Of a DNA stretch of 64,000 bases, positions 8,701 to 52,515 are shown piece by piece (the stretch's first letter is position 1; each line of letters starts with the position of its first letter). The translations under genes and the position numbers were made by a program. Source of the stretch: an uncultured Verrucomicrobiota bacterium (GTDB taxonomy: Bacteria; Verrucomicrobiota; Verrucomicrobiia; Opitutales; Opitutaceae); the NCBI GenBank assembly GCA_913058185.1, contig CAJXQX010000004.1:1-64000 (forward strand). Reading direction: 5' to 3'. The notes beneath the pieces are model-generated. The model saw only the letters and a program-made list of their open reading frames with translations. It was not told where the DNA came from and did no database searches.

Positions 8701-9039
8701 AGCAACGTGGGACCCGCTCTCACCGAAATCGGTGAGCGAGATTCCCGTTACATTCTCGAATCACTCGTCGACCCCGGAGCGGTCGTCGCGCCCGGATTCG
8801 GGATGACCAGCGTCACGCTAAAATCGGGGGAGTCTATCGCCGGAACCCTCATGGGCTCAACGGACGAAGGCATTAAGGTAAAAGCTCCGGATGGAAAAGT
8901 TCACCGCATCAAAACAGGAGACATCGCAAATCGCACCCCCGCCATGTCATCGATGCCTCCCATGGGCACGCTCATGTCCCGCTACGAACTCCGTGACCTG
9001 ATCACTTACCTCCAAACCTTGGTAGCCGACAAAAACTAG
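5746..9039 (+). CDS. PVC-type propeller/HEAT/cytochrome c protein (membrane-bound dehydrogenase type)
   Basis: A large secreted protein of a class mostly found in Planctomycetota and Verrucomicrobiota. A signal peptide covers about residues 1-25 (ending near LSNAE). A sugar dehydrogenase-like beta-propeller follows, with repeated DxDGDGxxD-type loops (LTDPDGDGIFDHRD) and NTQEPAFDAFGN, to about residue 440. A long run of HEAT-like helical repeats covers about 450-940. A C-terminal cytochrome c domain binds one heme through CTLCH at residues 975-979, with Met-rich SSMPPMG downstream as candidate axial ligand. Catalytic activity in this class is not established; periplasmic redox chemistry on sugars or alcohols is the usual guess. 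It lies between the TIM-barrel protein and the esterase on the same strand. Compare the operon at 38544-42838, where the same modules occur on two polypeptides. Confidence 0.85.
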   Translation: MHFCPRLFLICSLTACSLPTLSNAETIPGANGLELTEFAREPLVRNAVAVTVDERDNVFVTSVVRRQAADLDIRRFREWIETELGFTSVEEKRAWFKVNLTPENSAKFTGRFEDHNGDGSWDFADLSLLSDKITRLTDTDGVGLADEFIKFNAAENSEVTGIAAGLAAWDGAIYATVEPDLVKLTDPDGDGIFDHRDVLATGFSVHIGYGGHNFSGAIIGPDGRLYASVADRGMNVTDRAGVNHYNPHSGAIVRCELDGSNFEIFAYGLRNTQEPAFDAFGNLFGVDNDGDFKTEKERLVYITEGSDTGWRTNWQYRGDDWLPWMDERLAFPAHDEQPSYITPALQLYKDGPAGFAFNPGTALNPFYRDHFFMTAFPSRNLYAFQLEPDGAAYRMTGEHNVAQGALMVGMSFSPSGALYIADWSSSGYDMNEKGAVWKLDDPTQANSIVRQKTAQLFAQNWADETSSGLRQHLSYPDQRVRMKAQFEIVKRNDAQGLLSQATNRAVPQLGRIHAIWGLGQLHRRGDHVSTKSIQILLSDPNAEVRAQTAKIISDGGIADSEVRKTLRVLLNDPADRPRFFAAIALGKLGDESSRDALVDYLNRDGSDRFHRHAAVMGLAGGVAPAEIAALSAHPNRHVRLAAIVALRRLRSTEVTAFLNDSDALVVAEAASAIHDDESIPDALPALAQLLSSSQTLHERTQRRALSAALRLRDAPFAQLVADFAAVDTHSSAIRLHALTLLNDWLTPARLDTVEGRYRPLKQAWPERLALSVETSLTALSKSADPEIAQAAWEAAAKFGIQQTPADLIAIFNQDTPLSAAALAQLSNMNVAGIRQYTNQAMDSHHSSVKQQALRVIAKIAAADLAGYVRKFIDDQAIAEARTGIELMSRSTQTSAIVGVRTAINKLLRGELDSALSLDALTAASKSQDRDTLAILELYRKSKDSSDPLSPYLETLHGGDAVKGQTVFETSVAAQCTLCHRIGRRGSNVGPALTEIGERDSRYILESLVDPGAVVAPGFGMTSVTLKSGESIAGTLMGSTDEGIKVKAPDGKVHRIKTGDIANRTPAMSSMPPMGTLMSRYELRDLITYLQTLVADKN

Positions 9040-9060
9040 CATCCTCCCCCCTCTCTCCAC

Positions 9061-9083
9061 CTCTTACTCGTTCTCGTTCTCGA
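9061..9083. repeat. Short hexanucleotide repeat tract (CTCGTT type)
   Basis: The leader between the cytochrome protein gene and the esterase holds a run built from CTCGTT/CTTACT units. Longer tracts of the same units occur at 42841-42872 and 52400-52452, each also just before a gene start. Confidence 0.6.
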
Positions 9084-9106
9084 ACACTCAGACGGCTCCC
9101 TCCACC

Positions 9107-13204: not shown

Positions 13205-13501
13205 CGAGAGGTCGCCAAACCCTTGGGGCAACCGAGTTCATTTAATACCAAGGGTCAGTGATGCCCTCGAACTTTAAAAATGTCACGTCCGGAACTGGTT
13301 ACACAATAAAGCCAGTGTCGCGACCAGATCCGATCTCACCAACTGAAGCGAAGCAATCCGATCAGCTCAAGTCAGCTCCGGCTCTATTCTGAAAACGCAG
13401 ATCATATTCCCCTCTGACCAAAGTAACCAAATAGGTTACTTTGGTCAGGAGATCGAACCACTAGCCGGGATCGGTTTTAGCCAACCAGATCCTTGAATCG
13501 C
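13205..13501. other. Intergenic region between dapL and the TIR/TPR gene
   Basis: No convincing gene was found here. It would contain the promoter of the minus-strand TIR/TPR gene and the terminator of dapL. The only clear structure is the long palindrome at 13415-13447. Confidence 0.5.
13415..13447. repeat. GTAACC palindrome, copy 2 (14-bp stem)
   Basis: A perfect 14-bp stem, TGACCAAAGTAACC, a 5-base loop AAATA, then GGTTACTTTGGTCA. It lies 54 bp downstream of the dapL stop and could terminate dapL transcription. The inner GTAACC/GGTTAC core is shared with the palindromes at 10679 and 28953. Confidence 0.65.
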
Positions 13502-25150: not shown

Positions 25151-25870
25151 ATGAGTTCATCCCCGCTACCTTTTGATCCCACCCAATTTCCTCGGATCGG
25201 AATCGTGAGCAGCTTCGACGAACTGGTGACCGCTCGGCTCGAGGGCGGGGTAAATGCCTTGTGCTGGCCGCGTGTGCTCGACGGAGATTTCGGCGAAGTC
25301 GAACGCAGCCTTCCCGCCATCGATGGCATCACCACGCTCGACGAGGAGGACCTCGGTGGACTCAACCTGAACCCGGCCGGTCAACGGGCGCGCGAACACC
25401 TCATCAACGACCAGCGCCTACTCACCGCTCGCGGATTGCAGCCATCACTGGACATCGTTCCTTCAGGTGAACCCGATCTTGGCGACAGTCCCGTGCGCAC
25501 GGACGTTGCGGATTGGCACGTCGATAGCGCCACCGTCAAAGCGGACACGTATTTGTGCACCTATTTCGGGGAGGCCACCGAAGGGGTCCTCAACGAAGAT
25601 ACCCTCGGTCAAGTCCATGTCCCGGGGACGCGAGCGAAGTTACTCCAACTCTACGGCGGAGCCGACGACGCCAACTTTCGATCGTATCTGGCCGAGCACT
25701 TTTACGACCTGCACTACGCCGCCAACTCCGAGGCCCGCATCTACTCCTTTGGCATCGGTCACCTCTGGCGTATCGCCACCCAGTATCCCGGCAGCCCCGT
25801 CCCGCCTTGCATCCATCGGGCGCCGACGACCGGCAGCGATCAGACTCGCCGCTTGCTCCTTATCAGCTAG
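25151..25870 (+). CDS. Hypothetical protein, possibly DUF1826-like
   Basis: A 239-residue, acidic, soluble protein with no signal peptide or membrane segment. The second half has WHVDSATVKADTYLCTYFGEATEGVL followed by CIHRAPTTGSDQTRRLLLIS at the C-terminus. A His-x-Asp followed by a distal His-Arg with an RLLL strand resembles DUF1826 proteins and, more loosely, iron/2-oxoglutarate oxygenase-like cores. I offer that only as a possibility. It starts 37 bp after the antiporter gene and ends 119 bp before a sulfatase gene, so it may share a transcript with the antiporter. Nothing in the neighbourhood fixes a function. Confidence 0.55.
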   Translation: MSSSPLPFDPTQFPRIGIVSSFDELVTARLEGGVNALCWPRVLDGDFGEVERSLPAIDGITTLDEEDLGGLNLNPAGQRAREHLINDQRLLTARGLQPSLDIVPSGEPDLGDSPVRTDVADWHVDSATVKADTYLCTYFGEATEGVLNEDTLGQVHVPGTRAKLLQLYGGADDANFRSYLAEHFYDLHYAANSEARIYSFGIGHLWRIATQYPGSPVPPCIHRAPTTGSDQTRRLLLIS

Positions 25871-38543: not shown

Positions 38544-40820
38544 TCATTCGCTAACGACTTCAATACTCCCCCAATACCCGAACTCGTTCTGCCAATTATT
38601 CGCCTGATTCTCGATGATGATTTCAGCACTCGCTCCGGCAAACTCGGAGAGATTGACCTCAACCTCGAGCCACTCATCCTGCACGGTTTCGTAGCTCACA
38701 ATTTGGTTTAACAACAGTTTGCGAGCCACCGTCACTTTGAGTCGCCAGTCGCCATGCGGATGGTAGCTCGCGCGGATTTTGAGCGTCGTTTTCTTGTCCG
38801 CTGGTACGCTTAAATTACGCACCAACCGCGCACTTGCCTTCTCGCTGACCGGATGGGTCTGCAGCGCGACTTCGTTGCGGAAGCTACTCAACAACTCCAC
38901 CGCTTCGCCGCGGGATAGTTTAAACCCGGGGGCCACTTTTTGAATCAGTTCATCGAAGTTCACATCCGCAATCTCAGCGCCACCTAGCATCCGCCGAGCG
39001 ACAAACTCCTGCAGGTTTCCGGCTCCACTGTTTACGGCTAAGGACAAGGCTTTCTCCGCATGGTCCGGAACCATCGGTTCGAGCGCGAACCACAACATCC
39101 GCGGAATGTTCGCGTCTTCACGGTCTTCCTCTCGGGAGGCCAACGCCTCCAGCAACGGCCAGCGGTCTTCAAACTCCATACGTTGCAAGACCGACGCCAA
39201 ATAGAGCCGGACCACCGGCGAGCTGTCCGTCTTCGCGAGTTGCGTAAACTTCGCCAACGTTGCGGCTGAAAACTCGCGGTCTTCGCCCATCAGTTGCACC
39301 GCCCAAGCCCGGCAATATTCATCCTCATGATCGAGCAACCAATGAAACGCTTCCTGCCCGTCGTATCCATCGAAGTAACCGGTCACCCAGCCAGCCCACA
39401 TCATACGCAGGCGTTTGCCGCTGGTCGTCGCCTGGTTGAACTGCTTCACCAGCTTTTTGTGCACTGTCCGTTTATCCAACCAGCCTTCGGCGGTGCGTTG
39501 TTGCAGCAAGGTGCGCGAATGACGCACATACCAGTCGTTGGAGTGCAGCTGCATCTCCACGAGCTCCAGGTCGGATAGGTCCCGCAAATTTGGCCGTGCG
39601 ATTGGAGCGACGCCTTCCGGCATGATCCGATAGATCCGACCACTGTCCGGAAAATTGATGGCGTTGCCGCAAATATCCGTATCGTGCCAATCGAGGATAT
39701 ACACCCCGCCCTCCGGACCGATCTCCACGCTGAACCCGACCCACGCCAAATCGTTGGTGGGCATGAAATCCTCACCATGATGACCGATATAGCCCGATCC
39801 ACTGCGCGACATTTTGTCCGTCAACACCTCGTGTTGGTGGATGTTGCACATGAATAATTGATCCCGGTATTTCGCTGGAAACGTGTCGGCCAAATAGAAC
39901 CGAGCACCCCCATGCGCGGAACGATGCGCGTGATCGCGGATCGTTTTGATATCGTCGTAAATGTAGGGGTTCACGTGCTTCTTGCTCTGCTTGTGATACA
40001 CCCCGCCTTGCGACACGTGGAAGAGATGCGGAATCACACAACACGTCGCGAAACCTTGTCCCTCGTCGTTGAAATCGAAACCCCATGGGTTCGATAAACC
40101 GCGCGCAAAGATCTCGAACTCATCCTTCACCGGATGATAGCGCCAAATGCCCGCATCGATAAACTGACGCTCGTCATCACTGGCACCGGGTTTGCCCACA
40201 TTCGAATTTGTGAACACGCCGTGACAACCGTAGAGCCAACCGTCCGGTCCCCAGATGAAACTATTCAGGGTCTCATGCCGGTCATCGATCCCCCAGCCAT
40301 CGAGCAACACCTCGGGTGGTCCGTCCGGCACATCGTCGCCGTTACGATCCGGAATGAAACTCAAGTTGGGAGGCGACCCAATATACACACCGCCAAACCC
40401 CACCGCGATCCCCGAGCTAAACGTGATGTCGTCGGCAAAAAGCGTCATCTTATCGAAGACGCCGTCGCCATCGGTATCGTCTAGAATCTTGATCCGGCTC
40501 ACCTCTTCATACGTGTGCGAGCGGCGGTTCAGATAATTGAGGTTCTCCACCACCCACATCCGACCCCGGTCATCGAAGCAGAACGCAATGGGTTCCGCGA
40601 GGTCGGGCTCCGCCGCGAATATGGACACCTCAAACCCCTCCGGGATATCCATCTTGGCGACGGCTTCGGTGGGAGTGAGAAACGGCGCGTTACTTGTTTT
40701 CGCTTCCTGCGCAAACGCGGCAGATGCGAAGCTCAACGCCAGCGCTAGCGCCGTCAGGGCGCTGCGGCTGTGATTTGATTTTGAAGTAAAAGAGATCATT
40801 GGATTCAGGGTAAAATTCAT
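38544..40820 (-). CDS. PVC-type propeller/HEAT protein lacking a heme site
   Basis: A 758-residue secreted protein of the PVC-type membrane-bound dehydrogenase class. The signal peptide (to about residue 38, ASAAFAQ) is followed by AEPDLAEPIAFCFDDRGRMWVVEN and a sugar dehydrogenase-like propeller with DDTDGDGVFDKM, SPPNLSFIPDRNGDDVPD, GPDGWLYGCHGV and RGLSNPWGFDFNDEG, to about residue 410. HEAT-like repeats follow (about 430-620), then a C-terminal beta-rich domain (NFGYWGSIEVV-like end). There is no CxxCH. In the paralogue at 5746-9039 a cytochrome domain follows directly. Here the cytochrome is on the neighbouring gene, which overlaps by ATGA (40817-40820). The two products may work as partners. 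This is the last gene of the minus-strand operon. Confidence 0.85.
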   Translation of the reverse strand: MNFTLNPMISFTSKSNHSRSALTALALALSFASAAFAQEAKTSNAPFLTPTEAVAKMDIPEGFEVSIFAAEPDLAEPIAFCFDDRGRMWVVENLNYLNRRSHTYEEVSRIKILDDTDGDGVFDKMTLFADDITFSSGIAVGFGGVYIGSPPNLSFIPDRNGDDVPDGPPEVLLDGWGIDDRHETLNSFIWGPDGWLYGCHGVFTNSNVGKPGASDDERQFIDAGIWRYHPVKDEFEIFARGLSNPWGFDFNDEGQGFATCCVIPHLFHVSQGGVYHKQSKKHVNPYIYDDIKTIRDHAHRSAHGGARFYLADTFPAKYRDQLFMCNIHQHEVLTDKMSRSGSGYIGHHGEDFMPTNDLAWVGFSVEIGPEGGVYILDWHDTDICGNAINFPDSGRIYRIMPEGVAPIARPNLRDLSDLELVEMQLHSNDWYVRHSRTLLQQRTAEGWLDKRTVHKKLVKQFNQATTSGKRLRMMWAGWVTGYFDGYDGQEAFHWLLDHEDEYCRAWAVQLMGEDREFSAATLAKFTQLAKTDSSPVVRLYLASVLQRMEFEDRWPLLEALASREEDREDANIPRMLWFALEPMVPDHAEKALSLAVNSGAGNLQEFVARRMLGGAEIADVNFDELIQKVAPGFKLSRGEAVELLSSFRNEVALQTHPVSEKASARLVRNLSVPADKKTTLKIRASYHPHGDWRLKVTVARKLLLNQIVSYETVQDEWLEVEVNLSEFAGASAEIIIENQANNWQNEFGYWGSIEVVSE

Positions 40821-42838
40821 GGGGTAAACTCCACTTGTTCGGTCGTTTTCAAATACTCGATCAAATGAACTACTTGGTTGTCATTCATGGTCGACAGTAG
40901 ACCTTCCGGCATCATGGAAATGTCTGATGTCACTCGTGACGCCAGATCACCCGCGGCAATCACGTGCTTTTGTCCCACCGCATTGAGGGTAAGGCGTTGG
41001 GTATCTTCCGCGACGATCGTCCCCACCAGCACGCGGCCATCCTTTAGGGTGAGTGTGACCATTTTGTAGCTATCCGGAATATCGTCACTGGGGTCCAAAA
41101 TATTGAGCAAGATATAATCAAGATCCGCTCGATTCGATCCGGTCAGATCCGGGCCAATCTCGCCCCCTTTCCCATACAACACATGGCAGGCTCCACAGGT
41201 CCGTTCGTAAATTTCACGACCAGTAAATAGGTTCGCGCGTTTCACCCGATCCGAAGTGAGTAACTTCTGATATTTGGTAAATAAGACGCTCTTGTCCTCG
41301 GTCATTTCACCCACTTCTCCATAAACGGCGGTGAACGATTCCCCCAAAAGCGACTCCATCGCCCGGGCCGCATGAGTTGGAATATCGCGCTTCGAAATTT
41401 GCCCCGACCTCACGGCGCCGACCAACGATTCCGCCGTCTTCTTGCGCGTCGCTAACGTCTCCACCACTGCCCGCCGCGAAAGCTCTGGCAGCGCAGGGTA
41501 GGATTCCAACAACTGCGACGTCGCGCTCGGGTGCGCCACCGCGCCCATCGCTCGGATCACATCGATTTGTAGCGCTTCATCATTCAGCAGCCCCTCGAGC
41601 GTTTCGCCCAAGTTGGGATGCAACTGCGCCACCAATACCCTCAGCGAAGCCTGCCGATCGGCCAACGGTGCGCCTCGATCAATCAATCGAGCCAACGCTC
41701 TTTCCGCCGCCCGGTCATCCCCGAAGATCTGCGCCACTTCCTCCGCCAGCAAACGCACCGCTTGATCACCGCTCTGTAATAATTTCTCTCCCGCTTCCTC
41801 CCACATCGCCGGAGCCGCGACATCACGCCTGCCGGCCAATCCATCGCGCATGCCTTGCAGCAATCGCAACTGCACCGCCGCGTCATCGGTTTGATTCAAA
41901 GCCTTGGCCAACAAATCAAGAGCCGCCTCTTCGCGATTCATCGTCGTGAAGGCCACGCCACTGTAATCCTCCCACTGCGCGTTCATCTTATTCGCATCTA
42001 GTTCACCGCCGTAGACCACGAGTTGGTGACGGTAAACCGCGGTCTCACCTTCTTTGATCTCCCAATCACCCATTCGGGCCGGAGCGGGACCAATTCCCAT
42101 TTGTCCATCGACACGCCAGGCTTGAGGGAAATTGCGGTTCTCCGGATGATCCAGCACCGCAATATGACCCCAGTCGTCGCGTCCTTCGATGTCCATGCCC
42201 ACATCCACCCAACTCGCCCGCTGCCCTTCCCCTTCGGCATTCACCTGTCCGGCGCTGTTTACCACTCGGCCCTTGGTAAAACCCCGTTTCCAGGGCATGC
42301 GAATAAACAGTCCTCCATATTTATATTCCGCCATCGCGAGATCGACCACCGCCCGACCCGACCAAGTTAGGTCCAACAGATATTGACCGCCCGTCGCCCG
42401 CATCGTCCAACGCTGCGTTTCAATCATCACCGGTGAACTCGCCTCGTCATTCAATTCATAAACCGTCTCCCACGTCACGACGTCACCGGCAGCCTCAATC
42501 ACCCGATAGCTATCTCGGCTCCAATAACCCTCCGCCGGATGATGGAAGTAGTCGCGCCCATTGATCCGTGTAAACCCCCAATAGATTCCCGTCTGATGCA
42601 AGTGATGCCCCGGACTGTATTCTGTCAAAATTCCGTTCCCGTCGGGCGCCACCATCGGATGCAAATAAGGCCGGTGATCAGCCCGCGCCGCCTGCACCAA
42701 AATCGCCTCAGCTCCGCCTTCACGGAAAACCGAAATCGTCTGGGCATCCCCATCCTGCACCACCCGCAGCCCGTCCGCCTGAGCAACCGCAGCAAACAAT
42801 CCTAATATCCCAATAGTCCTTAGTATCATCATAATCAT
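40817..42838 (-). CDS. DUF6807 (PmoA-like) - HEAT - cytochrome c fusion protein
   Basis: A 673-residue secreted protein. After a signal peptide (MIMMILRTIGILGLFAAVAQA) comes a DUF6807 domain (about residues 25-310), with HHLHQTGIYWGFTRINGRDYFHHP and WTMRATGGQYLLDLTWSGRAVVDL. This domain has been annotated as PmoA-like, but its activity is not known to me. HEAT-like helices follow (about 320-510). A cytochrome c domain binds heme through CGACH (about 548-552), with Met residues in SMMPEG as possible axial ligands. The frame is open 20 codons further upstream, but those codons (RTRTSKSKSKK) are only the translated hexanucleotide tract at 42841-42872. I therefore start at 42838. It overlaps the next gene by ATGA and lies 61 bp after a sulfatase gene. 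Confidence 0.82.
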   Translation of the reverse strand: MIMMILRTIGILGLFAAVAQADGLRVVQDGDAQTISVFREGGAEAILVQAARADHRPYLHPMVAPDGNGILTEYSPGHHLHQTGIYWGFTRINGRDYFHHPAEGYWSRDSYRVIEAAGDVVTWETVYELNDEASSPVMIETQRWTMRATGGQYLLDLTWSGRAVVDLAMAEYKYGGLFIRMPWKRGFTKGRVVNSAGQVNAEGEGQRASWVDVGMDIEGRDDWGHIAVLDHPENRNFPQAWRVDGQMGIGPAPARMGDWEIKEGETAVYRHQLVVYGGELDANKMNAQWEDYSGVAFTTMNREEAALDLLAKALNQTDDAAVQLRLLQGMRDGLAGRRDVAAPAMWEEAGEKLLQSGDQAVRLLAEEVAQIFGDDRAAERALARLIDRGAPLADRQASLRVLVAQLHPNLGETLEGLLNDEALQIDVIRAMGAVAHPSATSQLLESYPALPELSRRAVVETLATRKKTAESLVGAVRSGQISKRDIPTHAARAMESLLGESFTAVYGEVGEMTEDKSVLFTKYQKLLTSDRVKRANLFTGREIYERTCGACHVLYGKGGEIGPDLTGSNRADLDYILLNILDPSDDIPDSYKMVTLTLKDGRVLVGTIVAEDTQRLTLNAVGQKHVIAAGDLASRVTSDISMMPEGLLSTMNDNQVVHLIEYLKTTEQVEFTP

Positions 42839-42892: not shown

Positions 42893-42899
42893 TTTCATC

Positions 42900-44480
42900 C
42901 TAATTCAGCCCTCCGTCATAATCAGGATTCGGCCCCGGCATGCGAGCTCCCACCGAGTCTCTCCAAGCATGTAATTTCGCCCGCAACTCAACGGCTTTCT
43001 CGGGCTGCGTTTGGGCCAGGTCGTGCTGTTCGCCGATATCGTTCTTCAGATCAAACAACTGCACGGTGTCGTTTTCAAAATACTCCAGCAATTTAAAATC
43101 TCCGGCGCGAATCGCCCCCGCAGGGCTCTGCATGCCGTGATTACTGTAGTGCGGAAAGTGCCAGAAAATTGCCTCGCGATCGAATCCGTCGCTTCCGGTC
43201 ACCAGCGGCGCCAAACTCACGCCATCACGATGTTGTTTGGGCATCGCAGGCAAACCTGCCATCTCCAAGATCGTCGGATAAAAATCGGTGCTGATGATCG
43301 GCTCATCCACCACGCTTCCCGACTGCCCGTGGCCGGGCCACTTCACGATGCACGGCACCCGAATCCCTCCTTCGTAGAGCCAACCCTTGGCTCCGCGCAG
43401 CGGGAGATTCGACGTCGAGAACGCACGGTCGAGCTGCGCTTCAGTAATGCTCCGGGTTGGGTTACCCAGATTCATCCCCGACATGCCGCCGTTATCGGCG
43501 AAGAAAATCACCACGGTGTCGTCGGCGAGACCGAGTGATTCGAGTTTCGTCAAGATGCGACCCAAGCTTTGATCAATCGCTTCCACCATGCCGGCAAACT
43601 CCACGTTATCTTGATGCTGTTTGATTTTCACGGTGCGCTGCGGCAGCACTTTGTAGCCGGCGTAGGCCTCATCTTCAATGAGTTCATCGAGCTCAGCGCG
43701 GCTCAACGGGTTCGCGTCATCCGGATTTCCCTCCAACACAAATCGGTCCGTCGTCGAAGCAGGGTTTACCTTTAGTTTCGCTTGATACTTCTCGACCAAA
43801 TCTCCGCGGCCTTCGATCGGATCATGCACCGCAAAATGGGCCATGTAGAGGAAGAAGGGTTGGTCCTGGTTTCGCTCCATAAAACAGAGCGCTTCCTCGG
43901 TCAGCCGATCCGTGAGATACTCTCCTTCCGGCCCCTCGAGTCCGTCCAAATTATAAGGCGCATAAAACGTGCGATTTGGCGCACCTCGACTCCAATTTTG
44001 CGGCGCATGCTCGTCAAAGCCATGGGCGTCAGGGGTGGAGGGCGCCTCACCTAGATGCCACTTGCCCAGCGCAGCGGTTCGATAACCGTGGGACTGCATC
44101 GCCTCTGCCAACGTCGTCTCCTCAAAGGCCAGCTGCTGCACACTGGGCACGTTCTTCAGCTTCTGAAACGGAAAATCTCGCCGACCGCGTAACCAATCCG
44201 ACAGCCCCGTTCGAGCCGGATATTTTCCGGTCAAAATACTCGATCGCGTCGGCGAGCACACGTGACACGCCGCATAGGCTGACGTGAATTTTACGCCCTC
44301 TTGGGTGAAACGATCGATATGCGGAGTCTCATAAAATGTGCTTCCAAAGCTACCGACATCCGCCCAGCCCAAATCGTCCACGAGAAAAAAGACTACGTTA
44401 GGCGGACGAGCCTCCAGCGCGGTGGTCAACATAAGACCTAGCGTCAGCAGCGAAAATGAGGAGATGCGGTTTTTTTTCAT
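42900..44480 (-). CDS. Secreted sulfatase, CSPTR active site
   Basis: A 526-residue sulfatase. A signal peptide to about residue 24 is followed by NVVFFLVDDLGWADVGSFGSTFYETPHIDR (metal-binding Asp pair). The canonical site is Cys75 in CSPTRSSILTGKYPARTGL. GKWHLGEAPSTPDAHGFDEHAPQNWSRGAP, LYMAHFAVHDPIEGR and VIFFADNGGMSGMNLGNPTRS complete the core, with RGAKGWLYEGGIRVPCIVKWPG behind it. An insertion between about residues 215 and 290 (VNPASTTDRFVLEG through LPQRTVKIKQHQ) makes it longer than its neighbours. The VHDPIEGR form resembles choline/aryl or N-acetylgalactosamine sulfatase-like enzymes. It overlaps the previous operon gene by ATGA at 44477-44480. Confidence 0.92.
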   Translation of the reverse strand: MKKNRISSFSLLTLGLMLTTALEARPPNVVFFLVDDLGWADVGSFGSTFYETPHIDRFTQEGVKFTSAYAACHVCSPTRSSILTGKYPARTGLSDWLRGRRDFPFQKLKNVPSVQQLAFEETTLAEAMQSHGYRTAALGKWHLGEAPSTPDAHGFDEHAPQNWSRGAPNRTFYAPYNLDGLEGPEGEYLTDRLTEEALCFMERNQDQPFFLYMAHFAVHDPIEGRGDLVEKYQAKLKVNPASTTDRFVLEGNPDDANPLSRAELDELIEDEAYAGYKVLPQRTVKIKQHQDNVEFAGMVEAIDQSLGRILTKLESLGLADDTVVIFFADNGGMSGMNLGNPTRSITEAQLDRAFSTSNLPLRGAKGWLYEGGIRVPCIVKWPGHGQSGSVVDEPIISTDFYPTILEMAGLPAMPKQHRDGVSLAPLVTGSDGFDREAIFWHFPHYSNHGMQSPAGAIRAGDFKLLEYFENDTVQLFDLKNDIGEQHDLAQTQPEKAVELRAKLHAWRDSVGARMPGPNPDYDGGLN

Positions 44481-45874
44481 GGATCGAGGGGTCGGCGGTT
44501 TTCCGCGGGCAACGCACGCTTCAGCTTCGCAATCACTCCGGCATGTTGCGACTGACTGGCGAGGTTATGCCATTCGTTGGGATCGTTGGAATGATCGTAG
44601 AGTTCTTCACCGCCGTCTTCGTAGCGAATGTAGCGCCACCGTTCGGTGCGCACGGCGTGATTCTGATAGCCGAAGGTCGTCAACACCGGTCGCGTCCACT
44701 CGCGTTGAGGGTCGCGCAGCAAGGGCACCAAACTCTGCCCATCGAGCCCTTCGCGCGCAGGAACCACGCAGAGTTCAATCAACGTGGGATAAAGATCGAT
44801 GAGGCTAACCATACGCGCACTCCGTTGACCCCGTCCGAGACCGTCCGGTGTCGTGATGATCAGCGGCGTGCGGGTGGTGGTTTCCCACAGAGCATGCTTC
44901 CGCCAGTGCTGCTTCTCGCCGAGGTGCCAACCGTGGTCTCCCCACAATACGATGATGGTGTTATCGGCGTGAGGGCTGCGGTCCAGGGCGTCGAGTAGCC
45001 GACCGATTTGGGCATCCACAAAACTGATCGTCGCGAGATAACTCTGCACCGCATGCGACCACTGGCCGTGTTTCAGCACGATGTCATGGTCTTCCCCCAA
45101 CGTCGCAAAATTTCGGGCGTTCGAAACATCGTGCACCTCCCGGGCGAATCGTTGGCCCCACTCCGGCAGGTCGTCTCGGTCATGGTCCAACGTATCCGGT
45201 AATACAATACTCTCAATCGGATGCAGGTCGAAATATTTTTGCGGCGCATACCATGGCAGGTGCGGTTTCGTAAATCCGCAGGCGAGGAAGAACGGTTGGT
45301 CGACGGGTTTGCCCAGCTCGTCGATCGTCCAATTTACCACTTTGCCGTCATACATGTCATCGTCGTCGCCCGCGACCGCTCCCCACGGTGCCCAGGGTGA
45401 GTCCGGCGGGTCGATGGGCTGCGAGCGGATGCGCTCCGGCTTGTGGTAATAATCCCAGGCGTCCACGTCGCCTTCCCGGCCCGCGCCATGAAAAATCTTC
45501 CCCCCGCCTTTCGCGGTGTATCCATTGGCGCGTAGATGAGCCATGAGCGTGACCGCATCGGGCAGCTTGTCCCGTAGCTGCTCACCATTGCCATACACGC
45601 CGGAGTTCGACGGCTGGATGCCGGTCAACAAACTGATCCGCGACGGATTGCAAAGCGGCGCGGAGCAATAAGCCCGCGTGAATGATACCCCGCGTTGCGC
45701 GAGCCGATCAATGTTGGGCGTCTTCGCCTGCGGATGTCCGTCCAGATGGCCGACCCAATCATTGAGATCGTCCACCGCAATGAAGAGCACGTTGGGTTTC
45801 TCCGCTGCACTCGCCAGCCCGACGGCCCAAAATAGGGCCACCAAACTACGAGGAATTTTTAAGTTCAATATCAT
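44477..45874 (-). CDS. Secreted sulfatase, iduronate-2-sulfatase-like, CNPSR active site
   Basis: A 465-residue sulfatase whose motifs fit the iduronate-2-sulfatase-like subgroup: NVLFIAVDDLNDWVGHLDGHPQAKTPNIDRL, the formylglycine Cys75 in CNPSRISLLTGIQPSNSGVYGNG, GGGKIFHGAG, FFLACGFTKPHLPWYAP and VLWGDHGWHLGEKQHWRKHALWE. Characterised relatives remove 2-O-sulfates from uronic acids in glycosaminoglycans; in marine bacteria the same fold acts on other polysaccharides, so the substrate is open. The start is the ATG at 45874 (a TTG lies one codon upstream). The gap to the preceding gene is 9 bp, and the stop overlaps the next gene by ATGA. Signal peptide about residues 1-24. Confidence 0.92.
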   Translation of the reverse strand: MILNLKIPRSLVALFWAVGLASAAEKPNVLFIAVDDLNDWVGHLDGHPQAKTPNIDRLAQRGVSFTRAYCSAPLCNPSRISLLTGIQPSNSGVYGNGEQLRDKLPDAVTLMAHLRANGYTAKGGGKIFHGAGREGDVDAWDYYHKPERIRSQPIDPPDSPWAPWGAVAGDDDDMYDGKVVNWTIDELGKPVDQPFFLACGFTKPHLPWYAPQKYFDLHPIESIVLPDTLDHDRDDLPEWGQRFAREVHDVSNARNFATLGEDHDIVLKHGQWSHAVQSYLATISFVDAQIGRLLDALDRSPHADNTIIVLWGDHGWHLGEKQHWRKHALWETTTRTPLIITTPDGLGRGQRSARMVSLIDLYPTLIELCVVPAREGLDGQSLVPLLRDPQREWTRPVLTTFGYQNHAVRTERWRYIRYEDGGEELYDHSNDPNEWHNLASQSQHAGVIAKLKRALPAENRRPLDP

Positions 45875-45883
45875 CAATTTTAA

Positions 45884-47698
45884 TTACTTCCGGGTCACAT
45901 AAACATAGTAGGAACCGAGAATAACATCATCGCCCCGAAACCACGTGTGCAGCGCCACGGGACCTTCCTCGAGAGTGGCCGTAAACGTCACCGCCGTATC
46001 CTCCGGCTTCACACGCTGCTGATAACTTCCCGAACCGTAACTACGGGTCCGACTGACCTCTTCCGTGTGATGATGGTCACTCAGGTATAGATTCGCGAAG
46101 TTGATGGCCAGACCGCCTCGACCGTCCTCGGCTGGAGCGGATAGCGGCCGATCAATCTCGCGCGGCCAGCGTCGCATTTCGAATTCGTATTCACCCGCCT
46201 CCGCCACCTCGAGCATCCAATAACCCGCCTTCTGTTGGCCGATGCGAATCTGGCGCTGTTGATCGACAAACACATCCAACCACTCGCAGGCGGTGAGCCG
46301 GGCCGGGTTTTCGTGATCACTTCCGACCACGACCCGCTGCACCTCATTCGCAATCAGCCCGACTTCATCCCACCAATCGTGAAGATGCTTACGCATGTGC
46401 GCGAGGACCTCGGGATTTTTGGCAATCACATTGGTCTGTTGCAGTGGATCAGATTTCAAATCGTAGAGTTCCCGATCTTCCAGCAAGCGCCAGCGCTTCC
46501 ACAAGACCGCCGAACCGGAGCGCGTCATCAGAGACTCCGCATAGGGCGTGGGATAATTCACAAACCCCGGCATGCGGCTGTAGTTGATCACCAGCGTCCG
46601 ATCCGCGGATACCTCGGCCTCGCCCCGTAGGACAGGCGCCAAACTCATCCCGTCAAACTCACGTTCAGTCTCGATTCCGCAAAGCTCGAGCAACGTCGGT
46701 AAAATATCCTGCACCTGAGTCAGCTCTTCCACCACTCCCGGCGCGGCCAGTCCCCCATTGGGCCAACTGACAAAACACGGCACTCGATGGCCGCCTTCCC
46801 AGAGCTGGGTCTTCGACCCAAACATGCCAGCGTTGTAATATCGCTGCCCAAACGTGCTGCCGTTATCCGTTTGGAAAATTAGAATGGTATCGTCGCGCAA
46901 CCCCTCGGTTTCGAGAAAATCCAACAACGCGCCCATGTTGGTATCGATGTTGCGCACCATACCGAGATAGCTCGCCAGACTCTTCCTCAGGGCATCCGAC
47001 AGGTGAGCGAATTCCGGCTGCGCCAACACCTCCGCCAACACCGCTTGATCCCCTGGTTTCGCGACCAGGGGTCCATGAGGTGTATTGGTGGCGATGTAGG
47101 CGAGGAACGGTTCACCCGCTGCCGCTGACTGTTTCATGAAACGCTTCGCTTCACCAAAAAAGATATCCGTGCAGTAGCCTTCGTAAGCCTGGAGCTCACC
47201 GTTGTGCGTGTAAGTGTCGTCGTAGTAATCATTCCCCCAATAGTCCGGCACCGAACCAATGTGAGACGAGGGAAACCACACCGTCTCATCGAAACCACGA
47301 TCCTCCGGCCGGAAGGGATAATTCGACCCCAAGTGCCACTTGCCAAACAACCCCGTCGCGTAACCCGCGCCAGAAAAGAAGTTGGCCATCGTCGGAACCT
47401 CGGGCCGAAGCAACGCCCGTCCACTGCTCACATTAATCGCGCCATTTCGCGCCGCGTCCAAACCTGTCATCAATTGACCGCGCGTCGGTGCACACATGGG
47501 CGAGACATGGTAGTCTTCGAACCGAATGCTCTCGGCGTGAAGCCGATCCAAATGCGGCGTCTCCAAGGCTGGATTGCCATGCGCCGAAAGCTCCGGATAC
47601 CCCTGATCATCTGTCATCACGATAATGACGTTGGGTCGCTTGGCTAGGACCGCCGTGGCGAGTAAGCTTACGATAAGGAAAGTAACGAAGGATTTCAT
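45884..47698 (-). CDS. Secreted sulfatase with C-terminal extension, CAPTR active site
   Basis: At 604 residues, the longest sulfatase in the window. A short signal peptide (MKSFVTFLIVSLLATAVLA) precedes NVIIVMTDDQGYPELSAHGNPALETPHLDRL. The formylglycine site is Cys69 in CAPTRGQLMTGLDAARNG. GKWHLGSNYPFRPEDRGFDETVWF, YIATNTPHGPLVA and IFQTDNGSTFGQRYYNAGMFGSKTQLWEGGHRVP follow. Beyond the normal end (about residue 460) lies a beta-rich region, including RRWPREIDRPLSAP, NLYLSDHHHTEEVS and VALHTWFRGDDVILGSYYVYV. It looks like a carbohydrate-binding or NPCBM-like domain and may tether the enzyme to its polymer. It lies 31 bp after the preceding gene in the operon. Confidence 0.9.
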   Translation of the reverse strand: MKSFVTFLIVSLLATAVLAKRPNVIIVMTDDQGYPELSAHGNPALETPHLDRLHAESIRFEDYHVSPMCAPTRGQLMTGLDAARNGAINVSSGRALLRPEVPTMANFFSGAGYATGLFGKWHLGSNYPFRPEDRGFDETVWFPSSHIGSVPDYWGNDYYDDTYTHNGELQAYEGYCTDIFFGEAKRFMKQSAAAGEPFLAYIATNTPHGPLVAKPGDQAVLAEVLAQPEFAHLSDALRKSLASYLGMVRNIDTNMGALLDFLETEGLRDDTILIFQTDNGSTFGQRYYNAGMFGSKTQLWEGGHRVPCFVSWPNGGLAAPGVVEELTQVQDILPTLLELCGIETEREFDGMSLAPVLRGEAEVSADRTLVINYSRMPGFVNYPTPYAESLMTRSGSAVLWKRWRLLEDRELYDLKSDPLQQTNVIAKNPEVLAHMRKHLHDWWDEVGLIANEVQRVVVGSDHENPARLTACEWLDVFVDQQRQIRIGQQKAGYWMLEVAEAGEYEFEMRRWPREIDRPLSAPAEDGRGGLAINFANLYLSDHHHTEEVSRTRSYGSGSYQQRVKPEDTAVTFTATLEEGPVALHTWFRGDDVILGSYYVYVTRK

Positions 47699-47729
47699 CA
47701 GGGGTATATTGGTTGAGTCGTTTGAGGCA

Positions 47730-49403
47730 CTAGTTGACGCGATATTGGGCCTTCAACCGGACAAGTTCGGTTTTCAGCTCAGCGATTTTACCGGCGTATG
47801 CCGGATTGTCGTATTCGTTGTTCATCTCACCGGGATCTTGCTGGTGATCATAAAATTCCCACTCATCCACATCGTCGGTTTTGAAATCCCAATCAGCATC
47901 GTTGTGCTTGTAGTGGATAAGTTTATACCGAGCATCCGCCACGCCTTCGTGTGGCGGCACACCATGGTTAAAGTAGGGTTCTCCGGAGTTTCGACCGGCC
48001 GTATTCCCACGCCACGTATTCCCTCCTCCATTTCCCCGAAACTCTCCCGGGTAATCGTAATAGAAACTCGTTCTCCAGTTTTCGGGAATGTCGCCTTTGA
48101 GAATTGGGACCAAGCTACTCCCCTGCATTTCATCCGGAATCGACGCCCCCGCCATCTCGAGGAACATCGGTGCGAAATCCAGATTGGAAACGATTTCATC
48201 AACGACCTGCCCTTCCGGCGCGACACCCGGCCAACGCACCATAAATGGTGTTTTCAAACACTCTTCATACATCCAACGCTTATCATACCAACCGTGCTCA
48301 CCGAGGAAAAAACCCTGGTCAGCGGCGTAGATCACGATGGTGTTTTCCGCCAGCCCACTTTCGTCCAGATAGTCCAACACGCGACCGACATTCTCGTCGA
48401 TGCCTTTGCTGGTGAGGAGGAAGTTTTTGACGAAACGTTGGTATCGCCAAAGCGCTCGATCATCTCCATGGAGATTGGCCTTTTTAAACGCTTCATTGGC
48501 TTCGTCAAAGTGGCTGCGGTAAACGCCGAGCTGCTCGTCATCTATATTGGCATACTCCAGACTCAGATTGCTAAGCGGCATCTCGTTGGCGATGCTCGTG
48601 CGGTGGTTCGCTGGCAGAGAACTGCGATTCGAAAAATCATCGAAAAAGTTGTCCGGCACCGGAGCGGTCACGTCGTCCAATTCACCGAGGTGACGTAGAG
48701 CCGGTTGAAACGGTCCATGCGTCGCCTTAAACTGACACATCAGCATGAAGGGCTGATCCGAGTCCCGATTTTTGAGCCAATCCAGGGATCGATCCACGAC
48801 TACATCCGTATTGTAACCTTTATACTCCGTAGGTTCGCCATCGGTGTAGAGGACCGGGTTGTAGTAGTGGCCCTGCCCGCGCATCACCTCGTGGTGATCG
48901 AATCCCGTGGGAATTGATTTCAAATGCCACTTGCCGACGATCGCCGTCTGGTAGCCGGATTTTTGCAGCAACTTGGGAAACGTCATCTGCTTTCCATCAA
49001 AGGTCGTAAAATTATTTTCCTGTCCGTTGAGGTGCGAATACTTCCCAGTCAGAACAACCGCTCGAGACGGGGCGCAGATTGAATTCGTAACCAGGCATCG
49101 ATCAAAGCGAATGCCTTCATCGGCGATTCGATCGATGTTGGGGGTCGGCACCACTTTGGATAAAGGATGCCCATACGCAGAGATCGTCTGCCACGTGTGA
49201 TCATCCGGGAATATAAAAAGAATGTTCGGCCGAGATTGAGCGGCACTCAGGCTCCCCATTCCCAATACATATAGAATCATCACAGCCACCCAGGTGAGGG
49301 AAACTGGACGCGCTTCGCTGCATTGATTGTTGCCCTCAAGAATCGAGCCAATCCGCCCAATAACAGATAGTTTTTTAGACAAATGTCGTTCGTAATTTTC
49401 CAT
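47730..49403 (-). CDS. Secreted or anchored sulfatase, CAPSR active site
   Basis: A 557-residue sulfatase: NILFIFPDDHTWQTISAYGHPLSKVVPTPNIDRI, the formylglycine Cys110 in CAPSRAVVLTGKYSHLNGQ, GKWHLKSIPTGFDHHEVMRGQGHYYNP, MCQFKATHGPFQPALRHL, IYAADQGFFLGEHGWYDKRWMYEE and MVRWPG. The DQGFFLGEHGWYDKR block matches a large group of bacterial sulfatases often annotated as N-acetylglucosamine-6- or heparan-type enzymes. About 40 residues precede the hydrophobic segment WVAVMILYVLGMGSLSA. That segment may be an uncleaved anchor, or translation may begin at the internal ATG near 49280. I kept the ATG at 49403 because it overlaps the previous stop as TGATG, which suggests coupled translation. Confidence 0.88.
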   Translation of the reverse strand: MENYERHLSKKLSVIGRIGSILEGNNQCSEARPVSLTWVAVMILYVLGMGSLSAAQSRPNILFIFPDDHTWQTISAYGHPLSKVVPTPNIDRIADEGIRFDRCLVTNSICAPSRAVVLTGKYSHLNGQENNFTTFDGKQMTFPKLLQKSGYQTAIVGKWHLKSIPTGFDHHEVMRGQGHYYNPVLYTDGEPTEYKGYNTDVVVDRSLDWLKNRDSDQPFMLMCQFKATHGPFQPALRHLGELDDVTAPVPDNFFDDFSNRSSLPANHRTSIANEMPLSNLSLEYANIDDEQLGVYRSHFDEANEAFKKANLHGDDRALWRYQRFVKNFLLTSKGIDENVGRVLDYLDESGLAENTIVIYAADQGFFLGEHGWYDKRWMYEECLKTPFMVRWPGVAPEGQVVDEIVSNLDFAPMFLEMAGASIPDEMQGSSLVPILKGDIPENWRTSFYYDYPGEFRGNGGGNTWRGNTAGRNSGEPYFNHGVPPHEGVADARYKLIHYKHNDADWDFKTDDVDEWEFYDHQQDPGEMNNEYDNPAYAGKIAELKTELVRLKAQYRVN

Positions 49404-50908
49404 CACGGTTTTTCATCTACTTTCCAGTTTTTGTTAGCGCGATTCCCGTAGTGGGGATAGTAATCCCACTCTACCGGTCCGCCTACGACGCGAGGATCCC
49501 GAGTTCGTTCTAGATGGGCGAAGAGTTGTTCCCGTAACTCGCTTTGAATATCTTCAAATCCTATCGCCCCGGCCACGTTCCGCATTTGGTGAGGATCGTC
49601 AGCAATCACGTATAATTCCTCAGCCGGATGCTTACTGAATGCCAATTGCGCCAAATCGGCGACGCCGTGCTTGTCCCTGTTTTCGATCATAAAGGTTTTG
49701 GTCGGGGAAGAGTCGTATTCGCCAAAGGGGATCAACCGATTGCACTCCGCGGGATCTGGCGAACCGGCCGGCCATCGAGTCGGTTCAAAATTATAGATGA
49801 ACATGTAATCCTTCGTGCGGATCATTCGGCTAGGATAGCCCTTTCCTCCGGCACGAGCCCCGCTATGACGTTCGAATCCCACGTAAGCGGATTCCCGATC
49901 CACTGACTGCGAACTCTGGAAGAGGCCCATCAGACTCCTACCCGTCATCATTTCCGGAACGGAAACTCCTGCCGCCTCCAGAAATGTGGGCGCCAAATCG
50001 CTCAAATTAACGGGATCGTCCACCATGTGCCCCACGCGCTTGATGCCCGTCGGCCAGCGAATGGCGAGCGGGACACGGGTGCCATCATCGTAGAGCGTAG
50101 CCTTAGCTCGCGGAAACGGCATCCCGTGGTCACTGGTCACGATCACGATGGTATTTTCCAACAGCCCTCGCTTTTCGAACGAATCGATCGCCCGCGCCAC
50201 CATCGAATCGAAGTGCTCCACTTCGACCAGATAATCGGCAATATCACTGCGCACGATTTGGTTATCAGGAAACACTTCCGGCACGACAATCTTGCTAAGA
50301 TCCTTGCCGGTTTTCAGCCCTGCGCCGTCCTGGTAAAATCGGTGCGGCTCGCTCGTTCCCAACCAGAAGCAGAAGGACTCATTCTCATCCCTTTCCGCCA
50401 TGAAGTCCTCGAAATTCCCCGCATAGTCTGTGCTGCGGATTCCCATGAACGAAGGTTTGAGGGTTCTCCCCTCATAGAGGGTTCCCGCGGGGTTTTCCGT
50501 TCGACCACCCGGCTCCAATCGTCCGGGGCCCCACGCCTTGCCCGTAGCCCCAATCTTATAACCCGCCTTCCGCAATTCATCCGGATAGGTCGCAAACTTA
50601 GCCGGCAGCGTGCTCCAAATGTTGCCCGCTTCCTCGAGACGCCAAATGGGCTGACCCGTTAGGATAGCGCTACGCGAAGGACCGCAGGTCGGCGCATCGC
50701 AATAGGAATGCGTAAATCGTAATCCTTCAGCTGCCACTCGATCAAAAGCAGGGGTGCTGACCACCGGGTCTCCGTTAGCGCCGGTGTGAGCCCAAGACTG
50801 ATCATCAGAAATACAGAAGAGAATGTTCGGGCGGGACTGTTCCGTCGCGCCACAGAAGCTCGAGGCCCAAGCTCCAGCTACGATCAAAAGAGTGACGAGT
50901 TTTTTCAT
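49403..50908 (-). CDS. Secreted sulfatase, CGPSR active site, tandem copy 2
   Basis: A 501-residue sulfatase, very similar over its whole length to the upstream gene at 50905-52401. Signal peptide MKKLVTLLIVAGAWASSFCGA; NILFCISDDQSWAHTGANGDPVVSTPAFDRV; formylglycine Cys75 in CGPSRSAILTGQPIWRLEEAGN; GATGKAWGPGRLEPGGRTENPAG in place of the common GKWHL block; WLGTSEPHRFYQ; and VTSDHGMPFPRAKATLYDDGTRVPLAIRWP. The Gly-Lys-Ala-Trp form and DHGMPFPRAK resemble the heparan N-sulfatase-like subgroup. The ATG at 50908 overlaps the stop of the first copy by ATGA, so I prefer it to the longer frame. Its own stop overlaps the next sulfatase start as TGATG. Confidence 0.92.
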   Translation of the reverse strand: MKKLVTLLIVAGAWASSFCGATEQSRPNILFCISDDQSWAHTGANGDPVVSTPAFDRVAAEGLRFTHSYCDAPTCGPSRSAILTGQPIWRLEEAGNIWSTLPAKFATYPDELRKAGYKIGATGKAWGPGRLEPGGRTENPAGTLYEGRTLKPSFMGIRSTDYAGNFEDFMAERDENESFCFWLGTSEPHRFYQDGAGLKTGKDLSKIVVPEVFPDNQIVRSDIADYLVEVEHFDSMVARAIDSFEKRGLLENTIVIVTSDHGMPFPRAKATLYDDGTRVPLAIRWPTGIKRVGHMVDDPVNLSDLAPTFLEAAGVSVPEMMTGRSLMGLFQSSQSVDRESAYVGFERHSGARAGGKGYPSRMIRTKDYMFIYNFEPTRWPAGSPDPAECNRLIPFGEYDSSPTKTFMIENRDKHGVADLAQLAFSKHPAEELYVIADDPHQMRNVAGAIGFEDIQSELREQLFAHLERTRDPRVVGGPVEWDYYPHYGNRANKNWKVDEKP

Positions 50909-52401
50909 GGCTTTTCGTCGACGGTCCATCCTTCGGTCCTAACCCTACCGTAGTAGGGATAATAATCCCAATCAACCGTCCCACCCACGACTCGCGGATC
51001 CTGGGTTTCGGCCAAGCGATCAAACAAACGCGCGCGTAATTCTTTTTGAATCGCTTGATGATCCCGGGAGCCCGCCAGGTTCGTCATTTGATACGGATCG
51101 TTTGCTATGTCGTAGAGTTCTTCCGCGGGCCGCATGCCAAAGGAGAGCTCGGCCAACGCAGCAACGCCGTGCGTGTCCCGGTTCTCCATCATGAACGTCT
51201 TGGTCGGCGAATCATCGATTTCGCCATACGGGATGGCCCGCGCGCACACCGAGGCATCAGGCGAACCCGATGGCCAACGCGTGGGCTCGAAATTGTGAAT
51301 ATACAAAAAGTTTTCCGTTCGAATCGCACGACAGGGATACCCTTTTCCGCCCGCCCGACATCCATCGTGTCTTTCCATAGCGACATAGGACGCATCGCGG
51401 GTCGTCGTCTCTTGATTCGCAAAAATATCCGTCATGCTCCTGGCACTCATCATGCGAGGAATCTCCACACCCGTAGCGGCCAAAAAGGTCGGCGCGAGGT
51501 CGCTCAGATTGACGAAGGAATCCACCTCTCTCCCCGCCTTCGCAATACCGGCCGGCCAACGAAGCGCCAACGGCACGCGCGACCCCAAATCATACAAACT
51601 CGCCTTGGCCCGCGGAAACGGCATGCCGTGATCACTCGTCACCACGATGATGGTATTCTCCAACAATCCTCGCTTTTCGAGCGATTCGATCGCCCGCGCG
51701 ACCATCGAATCAAAGTGCTCCACCTCGACCAAGTAGTCGGCAATATCGCTGCGCACTATCTCATTGTCAGGAAACACTCCGGGCACGACGATTTTGCTGA
51801 GATCTTTGCCGGTTTTTAGCCCCGCGCCATCCTGATAAGAACGGTGCGGCTCGCTCGTTCCCAACCAGAAGCAGAAGGACTCATTCTCATCCGTCTCCGC
51901 CATGAAGTCCTCGAAATTTCCCGCATAGTCCGTGTTGCGGATTCCTTGGAAGGAGGGTTCGAGCGTTCGCCCCTCATAGAGGGGACCCGCCGGATTCTCC
52001 GTCCGGCCTCCTGGCTCAAGCCGTCCCGGGCTCCACGCTTTGCCCGTCGCCCCCACCTTGTAACCTGCCTTTCGCAATTCATCCGTATAAGTCGCGAATT
52101 TCGCCGGCAGAGTGCTATGAATATTACCCGCCTCCTCCAGCCGCCAAATGGATTGCCCGGTGAGAATCGCACTGCGCGACGGACCGCAGGTCGGCGCATC
52201 GCAAAACGCATGGGTAAATCGAAGTCCTTCTAGAGCGATCCGATCAAAAGCAGGCGTCTGCACAACCGGATCCCCATTCGCGCCAGTATGCGCATAAGAC
52301 TGATCGTCAGAAATACAAAACAGAATATTCGGTCGCTTCCCCGCCACCAACGAGCCCGCCACTAAAGCAAACGCCAATAACCCTGAAGTAATCTTTATCA
52401 T
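50905..52401 (-). CDS. Secreted sulfatase, CGPSR active site, tandem copy 1
   Basis: A 498-residue sulfatase and the first sulfatase of the minus-strand operon. Signal peptide MIKITSGLLAFALVAGSLVAG; NILFCISDDQSYAHTGANGDPVVQTPAFDRI; formylglycine Cys72 in CGPSRSAILTGQSIWRLEEAGN; GKAWSPGRLEPGGRTENPAG; LGTSEPHRSYQDGAG; VTSDHGMPFPRAKASLYDLGSRVPLALRWP. It pairs with the next gene as a tandem duplicate; both end in VDEKP. I start it at the ATG at 52401. Four further codons upstream (52413) fall inside the hexanucleotide tract at 52400-52452, so the longer start is possible but less likely. It is separated from the Gfo/Idh gene by 130 bp that carries the repeat element. Confidence 0.92.
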   Translation of the reverse strand: MIKITSGLLAFALVAGSLVAGKRPNILFCISDDQSYAHTGANGDPVVQTPAFDRIALEGLRFTHAFCDAPTCGPSRSAILTGQSIWRLEEAGNIHSTLPAKFATYTDELRKAGYKVGATGKAWSPGRLEPGGRTENPAGPLYEGRTLEPSFQGIRNTDYAGNFEDFMAETDENESFCFWLGTSEPHRSYQDGAGLKTGKDLSKIVVPGVFPDNEIVRSDIADYLVEVEHFDSMVARAIESLEKRGLLENTIIVVTSDHGMPFPRAKASLYDLGSRVPLALRWPAGIAKAGREVDSFVNLSDLAPTFLAATGVEIPRMMSARSMTDIFANQETTTRDASYVAMERHDGCRAGGKGYPCRAIRTENFLYIHNFEPTRWPSGSPDASVCARAIPYGEIDDSPTKTFMMENRDTHGVAALAELSFGMRPAEELYDIANDPYQMTNLAGSRDHQAIQKELRARLFDRLAETQDPRVVGGTVDWDYYPYYGRVRTEGWTVDEKP

Positions 52402-52515
52402 TCTCGTTCTCATACTCGTTCTCGCTCTCGTTCTCGTTCTCGTTCTCGTTCCAAAAAATCCTGCCTCTCAGCGTCTGAATCTGTGTTTATCAGTGTTCAT
52501 CTGTGGTTAGAAAAT
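52400..52515. repeat. Hexanucleotide tract and dispersed segment before the first operon sulfatase
   Basis: A tract of CTCGTT-type units (52400-52452) is followed by AAAAAATCCTGCCTCTCAGCG, then TCAGTGTTCATC and TGTGGTTAGAAAA. The first two parts match 42841-42892; the last part matches 16291-16315 before nadB. The composite suggests a mobile or recombining leader element. Confidence 0.6.

Follow-up and report, generated by a model that had tools for sequence, protein, structure and literature searches.

Why should a cytochrome be attached to a DUF6807 protein when the propeller protein encoded next door has none? This question is raised by two adjacent genes of the window, meaning the whole 64,000-nucleotide stretch of DNA analyzed here, from an uncultured bacterium of the Verrucomicrobiota. 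An earlier note on this DNA had described an upstream gene combining DUF6807, HEAT-type helices, and a CxxCH motif, together with an overlapping propeller/HEAT gene devoid of CxxCH, and the coordinates, reading frames, and profiles agree with that description. What the locus appears to contain is a split, module-swapping form of a known, nearly uncharacterized enzyme family. Full-text literature searches returned a single functional study of the TIGR02604 propeller family and none of DUF6807, and no papers were found on a pairing of DUF6807-cytochrome and propeller proteins.

The gene pair and its setting

The downstream propeller gene shares 4 bp with the DUF6807-cytochrome gene, and the pair closes an eight-gene run on one strand in which six sulfatase genes lie upstream. 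With one strand throughout and neighboring genes overlapping or close together, the eight probably make up a single operon. Comparable sulfatase runs were also observed beside the split pairs of two other loci, L140 and L143. Elsewhere in the window, two ORFs of 746 and 239 aa (10745-12985, minus strand, and 25151-25870, plus strand) had no Pfam match at E 1e-5. The features discussed below are as follows.

40817..42838, minus strand: DUF6807-HEAT-TIGR02603 gene, 673 aa, the electron-carrying half
42776..42838, minus strand: putative signal peptide of the DUF6807-cytochrome protein, MIMMILRTIGILGLFAAVAQA, from the translation
41951..42775, minus strand: DUF6807 domain, aa 22-296, galactose-mutarotase-like super-sandwich (PF14100 and structural matches)
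41261..41935, minus strand: C-terminal half of the HEAT arm, aa 302-526 (AlphaFold helices and alignment to single-chain relatives)
40844..41230, minus strand: TIGR02603 heme-c domain, aa 537-665 (profile match; nearest solved relative Kustd1711, 7ZS0)
41183..41197, minus strand: CGACH, the heme-binding site, aa 548-552 (568 when numbered on the 693-aa protein)
40910..40915, minus strand: Met642-Met643 before Pro, predicted distal heme ligand region (family alignment to Kustd1711)
38544..40820, minus strand: TIGR02604 propeller gene without a carrier, 758 aa, the catalytic half
39609..40673, minus strand: beta-propeller, aa 50-404, PQQ sugar dehydrogenase fold (3a9g, Z 26.7; AA12, Z 26.0)
38982..39572, minus strand: N-terminal half of the HEAT arm, aa 417-613 (AlphaFold helices; HEAT_2, E 7e-05)
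38550..38924, minus strand: C-terminal beta-sandwich, aa 633-757, carbohydrate-binding-module-like (predicted structure, Foldseek)
38967..38972, minus strand: break point of the propeller protein, about residue 617 (alignment to single chains)
41915..41920, minus strand: matching break point of the DUF6807-cytochrome protein, about residue 307 (alignment to single chains)
42900..52413, minus strand: six sulfatase genes, probably in an operon with the pair (PF00884 in 6/6; spacing)
5746..9039, plus strand: single-chain propeller-HEAT-TIGR02603 protein, a distant relative only (Pfam/TIGR profiles, tree)

The upstream gene has in-frame starts at 42898 and 42838. The ATG at 42898 gives a protein of 693 aa, and the start at 42838 gives a clean signal peptide. 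Each protein of the pair bears a separate signal peptide, and both are secreted. In the DUF6807-cytochrome protein, PF14100 matches aa 51-290 with an E value of 1e-51 (176 bits against a gathering threshold of 27), and the TIGR02603 heme domain scores 116 bits (cut-off 68), with its signature residues CGACH (548-552) and SMMP (641-644) in place. Between these two domains, the AlphaFold model (pLDDT 84) places helical hairpins, which Pfam did not call as HEAT repeats but whose counterpart in the alignment with single-chain relatives is the HEAT arm. Among solved structures, Kustd1711 comes nearest to the heme domain in both sequence (E 7e-11) and fold, and its Met equivalent to that of the TIGR02603 Met-Pro stretch is the distal heme ligand (PMC11791136).

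The propeller protein scores well above cut-off with TIGR02604 (325.4 bits versus 122.2) and PF23500 (215.3 bits versus 27); its HEAT_2 match is weak. No CxxCH, TIGR02603, or cytochrome family match was found in its 758 aa, and the heme site that the family name of TIGR02604 (PVC-type) leads one to expect in the chain is absent and sits in the adjacent gene instead. Its C-terminal beta-sandwich was matched by Foldseek to CBM61 (2xom) and a porphyran CBM (8xmz); this domain is present in the split clade and absent from the aligned single-chain relatives.

A chain apparently divided within its HEAT arm

Whether DUF6807-cytochrome fusions regularly neighbor a heme-less propeller gene, as the earlier note had wondered, was searched with the DUF6807-cytochrome protein as the query, rather than the propeller, and with readable surroundings required. 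Ten propeller-less HEAT-carrier proteins were recovered (the window, L079, L080, L081, L082, L083, L085, L140, L143, and L152), and all ten have a carrier-less propeller encoded directly downstream on the same strand, at a gap of -13 to +125 bp. These linked pairs are not independent events and represent about three lineages. A search of 286 genomes with the propeller protein found full-length orthologs only in G000, G208, and G139, and all three stand beside a HEAT-carrier protein. Four further pairs (L168, L169, L172, and L174) were picked propeller-first and are not an unbiased sample. Finally, eight carrier-less-looking picks from a related subfamily (L164-L167, L170, L171, L173, and L175) had no HEAT-carrier gene in the stretch read, so adjacency is not universal in that subfamily. 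The whole fusion was not found in plasmid records. At L168 (6387-11955, minus strand) and L169 (2-4141, plus strand), one HEAT-cytochrome gene lies beside two tandem carrier-less propellers, as if shared.

The two window proteins can also be compared with 20 relatives in which DUF6807, propeller, HEAT, and heme (or copper) occur in one chain (L142-L144, L146-L151, L153-L155, L159-L163, and L084, plus L139 and L141 with copper). By alignment, the two proteins tile all 20 single chains in order. For example, on L142, DUF6807 residues 15-294 fall on 15-294, residues 44-617 of the propeller protein on 311-896, and the HEAT-heme residues 307-669 on 896-1258. In most of the 20 chains the matches join with an offset of no more than about 20 residues, and in several they adjoin exactly; in a few, the HEAT match begins 15-40 residues later, and in L139 and L141 only the HEAT part aligns to the window's cytochrome half, as these chains carry copper rather than heme. 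Judged by these alignments, the cut between the two genes falls inside the HEAT array.

Other split pairs are broken at almost the same place. In L142 numbering, the breaks lie at 895/890 in L140, 892/887 in L152, 892/890 in L168, 892/889 in L169, 888/899 in L172, and 889/893 in L174, and together with the window these break points agree within about 12 residues. Both gene orders occur: the heme (or copper) half comes first in the window, L079-L083, L085, L140, L143, and L152, and the propeller half comes first in L168, L169, L172, and L174. Given near-identical break points and both gene orders, the same joint of the HEAT solenoid was probably opened, or closed, more than once. Among 60 propellers placed in a tree, the window protein falls within a clade of 10 (support 100), none of whose members has an in-chain carrier, and the sister of this clade is a 20-member clade (support 100) of single-chain DUF6807-propeller proteins, with a support of 98 for the join.

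Several candidates were put aside. L158 was not counted as a further split pair, as its ORFs share 284 bp and adjoin at a different position, which suggests a frameshift; L198 was rejected as a propeller-less heme half, being a broken remnant of a HEAT-heme gene (6714-9116, minus strand) whose adjoining ORF is transposase-like by sequence. L193-L197 were set aside because they are cut by contig ends.

The window's own protein at 5746-9039 unites propeller, HEAT, and cytochrome in one chain, as the earlier note had stated, and its cytochrome part is a TIGR02603 domain. The similar cytochrome layout that the note had observed in this protein and in the DUF6807-cytochrome protein (CxxCH, then GPDLT or GPALT, then Met-Pro) is explained as the family signature of TIGR02603. 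The further idea that the cytochrome had moved from a protein of this kind has been abandoned, since the 5746-9039 protein has at most 25% identity to any other propeller and lies on a distant tree branch. The pair should instead be compared with the single chains of DUF6807, propeller, HEAT, and carrier, its closest counterpart being the DUF6807-propeller-HEAT-heme chain.

Electron carriers, active site, and DUF6807

The genome of the window encodes about 20 TIGR02604-like propellers, 13 of which are above cut-off. Twelve of the 13 have their own heme or cupredoxin domain, and only the window's propeller has neither. TIGR02603 lies in frame in seven, another CxxCH cytochrome over the Pfam cut-off occurs in four, and one has a cupredoxin-like C-terminus that responds strongly to a purpose-built model and falls below the Pfam cut-off. 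On contig C36 of this genome (G000; L201:1572-5045), a single-chain GDSL-propeller-HEAT protein with a cupredoxin-like end was observed.

In certain relatives, though not in the window protein, which has heme, a plastocyanin/azurin-type domain with four readable copper ligands takes the place of the heme domain, both in the split form (L082 and L083) and in the single chain (L139 and L141). PF00127 matches at the heme position in L083 (E 4e-09) and L139 (E 3e-07), the same domain being present in L082 and L141, and all four His-Cys-His-Met copper ligands can be read in THN...CTYPGHGLIM (L083) and NHN...CTFPGHHLVM (L139). Heme and copper replacing each other at one position would make little sense for a domain that did not carry electrons. 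The earlier proposal of a split pair, in which heme is provided for the heme-less propeller encoded next door, is sustained by the 10/10 linkage, the 20 single chains, and the single carrier-less member among 13 in the genome, and a putative split enzyme is well supported by genomics in its architecture, tiling, and linkage.

The best structural matches of the propeller (aa 60-404) are PQQ sugar dehydrogenases (3a9g, Z 26.7; AA12, Z 26.0; sGDH, Z 22-24). The six-bladed fold is that of soluble PQQ glucose dehydrogenase (PF07995), with Z scores of 22-27 to 3a9g, 6h7t, 1cq1, and 2g8s; other six-bladed propellers, among them hydrolases, reach about 21. A profile of 59 related propellers retrieved E. 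coli YliI (hmmsearch E 3e-10 against one target; hhalign probability 94). The narrower A2 profile of 25 split and triple propellers gave no useful match to YliI, and a PDB sequence search with the propeller profile matched only HEAT-like repeats. The catalytic His of sGDH (His144) corresponds to His182, equated by motif rather than by superposed coordinates, and is kept in 97% of the 59 propellers. Arg228 of sGDH is replaced by Ser in 25/25 aligned split and triple propellers; the window has Ser243-Asn244, keeping the Asn of the Arg-Asn pair. As for PQQ synthesis, PqqC was not found in the window's genome and no PqqE was above cut-off, so PQQ would be either scavenged or not the cofactor. For these reasons, the Arg-to-Ser change and the PqqC/PqqE result, the protein is not classed here as a PQQ enzyme.

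DUF6807 has structural matches to a PL26 lyase (Z 18.4) and GalM (Z 17), and its fold is also common to a GH174 fucanase. The predicted fold is of a carbohydrate-enzyme type; which reaction takes place does not follow from fold similarity. The domain is N-terminal to the propeller in the 20 single chains and N-terminal to the HEAT-carrier half in the window, L079-L083, and L085. In L181 (4095-8429, plus strand), a propeller-HEAT-heme-DUF6807 chain, it lies at the end opposite all others. It is missing from the electron-carrying half of L140, where the run goes on to a separate DUF6807 gene, and from that of L143, where the next gene encodes a DUF6807-propeller-HEAT-heme chain; in L152, ThuA stands in its place. 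The notion that DUF6807 might itself be the electron-transfer part does not fit with its mutarotase-like fold at the end of the carrier half, nor with these losses and the ThuA replacement.

One DUF6807 subfamily is specific to these propeller/HEAT-carrier proteins. On the tree of DUF6807 domains, that of the window clusters with those of single chains and of one stand-alone gene from its own family (100/98), and the fused DUF6807 of an Akkermansiaceae group lies apart from it; a single origin of the DUF6807-HEAT-heme fusion is disfavored by the tree and not rejected (AU p 0.076). Additional DUF6807 and propeller fusions were observed. L179 (5586-9707, minus strand) and L180 (5473-9420, minus strand) encode ThuA-HEAT-F5/8-DUF6807 proteins of about 1320-1370 aa with Pfam HEAT repeats and no propeller. 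A 3-keto-disaccharide hydrolase (PF06439) is fused to DUF6807 in L185 (4735-6489, plus strand), and a 3keto-disac_hyd domain is fused to a propeller in L158. In L151, a fusion of DUF6807 with a GDSL-type esterase (11915-13417, minus strand) lies directly upstream of the DUF6807-propeller-HEAT-heme chain.

A proposed mechanism, its alternatives, and related systems

We consider it somewhat probable that the window pair constitutes two halves of one secreted sugar-oxidizing enzyme, rejoined via HEAT, with DUF6807 as its sugar-handling head. Both halves would be exported and, as the tiling suggests, would then join at the cut ends of the HEAT solenoid, so that the arrangement found in a single chain is recovered. 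From its fold and context, the propeller may oxidize a sugar unit of a sulfated glycan on which the six sulfatases act. The heme-c domain, at the distal end of the second half, would then accept the electrons and hand them to the respiratory chain; the heme/copper swap supports the transfer to the heme. At the free end of the second half, the mutarotase-like DUF6807 could serve as a head for binding or converting either that sugar or the product of its oxidation. Evidence counting against such an enzyme includes the Arg228-to-Ser change, the failure to find PqqC, and the unpaired heme-less propellers of the related subfamily. Moreover, Lac161_ORF7, the only purified single-chain relative found, was reported to hydrolyze lactose, not to oxidize it (PMC5342196). 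As a tentative and rather doubtful generalization, these proteins could form a modular, extracytoplasmic, self-assembling split enzyme with a HEAT docking joint, a heme c or blue copper carrier, a DUF6807 or ThuA head, a carrier half serving more than one catalytic half, and maybe a non-PQQ cofactor.

The two proteins could conceivably share a pathway without forming a complex, the DUF6807-cytochrome protein being a soluble acceptor that meets the propeller by diffusion. The separate signal peptides, the one HEAT-cytochrome gene beside two tandem propellers in L168, and the carrier-less propellers without a nearby partner are all in keeping with this arrangement, but it sits poorly with a cut that lies inside a repeat solenoid and at an almost constant position across separate lineages, and with the HEAT stubs retained by both halves, as a free cytochrome would need no HEAT half; we regard it as unlikely. 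To a similar degree, it is improbable that the propeller is a hydrolase, lyase, or sugar-binding protein whose heme/copper domain is structural or sensing. Lactose hydrolysis by Lac161_ORF7 (PMC5342196) would be explained in this way, as would the Ser in place of the sGDH Arg, the PQQ synthesis genes not found in the genome, and a fold common to lactonases and other hydrolases. Nevertheless, three kinds of redox carrier (TIGR02603, other CxxCH, and cupredoxin) are attached to propellers in one genome, which points to electron transfer, and the catalytic His is kept.

A further alternative concerns DUF6807 alone, which might be a passenger or targeting module outside the reaction, so that only the pairing of propeller and cytochrome would matter. 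The carrier halves of L140 and L143, which have no DUF6807, and that of L152, with ThuA, agree with this possibility. However, L140 has a DUF6807 gene in the same run and L143 has DUF6807 in the next gene's chain; the domain occupies three fusion positions (the propeller N-terminus, the HEAT-half N-terminus, and the C-terminus in L181), its subfamily is specific to these proteins, and the trees favor two separate fusions, a single one not being rejected at the p value given above. A mere passenger is, on balance, quite unlikely. If the split sugar-oxidizing enzyme with its DUF6807 head is real, it would add an oxidative step to the breakdown of sulfated polysaccharides by marine Verrucomicrobiota-type bacteria and give DUF6807 a sugar-related role. 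The natural split form, along with the heme/copper swap in relatives, makes a vague family annotation testable.

Among known systems, the soluble PQQ sugar dehydrogenases (sGDH, E. coli YliI, 3a9g of A. pernix, and fungal AA12) share with the window protein the propeller fold, the catalytic His, and the Asn; in contrast, the window protein has Ser for Arg, an added HEAT arm, and a separately encoded carrier, and PQQ synthesis genes were not found in its genome. Kustd1711 (PMC11791136), the closest solved relative of the window's heme domain, likewise has a His/Met heme, but it is a stand-alone diheme carrier in a nitrite oxidoreductase cluster, with no HEAT or DUF6807 attached. A periplasmic 3-keto-glycoside pathway, with the lactose 3-dehydrogenase LacABC and a DUF1080 hydrolase, has been proposed for lactose in Caulobacter (PMC9007349). 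There too, a sugar is oxidized outside the cytoplasm and then cleaved, and in relatives a propeller or DUF6807 is fused to 3keto-disac_hyd (L158 and L185) or ThuA, whereas a LacABC-type dehydrogenase is absent from the window pair. These fusion partners offer a hint, by analogy, of an oxidize-then-cleave scheme with oxidation at C3.

The 'PVC-type heme-binding CxxCH protein' (TIGR02604 + HEAT + TIGR02603), exemplified by Lac161_ORF7 (PMC5342196), possesses the three modules in an identical order. Unlike this single chain, the window's is cut in the HEAT arm and encoded by two genes, with DUF6807 on the electron-carrying half and a CBM-like beta-sandwich ending the propeller half. Finally, the DUF6807-propeller-HEAT-heme/copper single chains have all the modules, about 50% propeller identity, and, in many cases, sulfatase neighbors. 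They differ from the window pair in being encoded by one gene rather than two, in having DUF6807 N-terminal to the propeller, and in having no C-terminal beta-sandwich.
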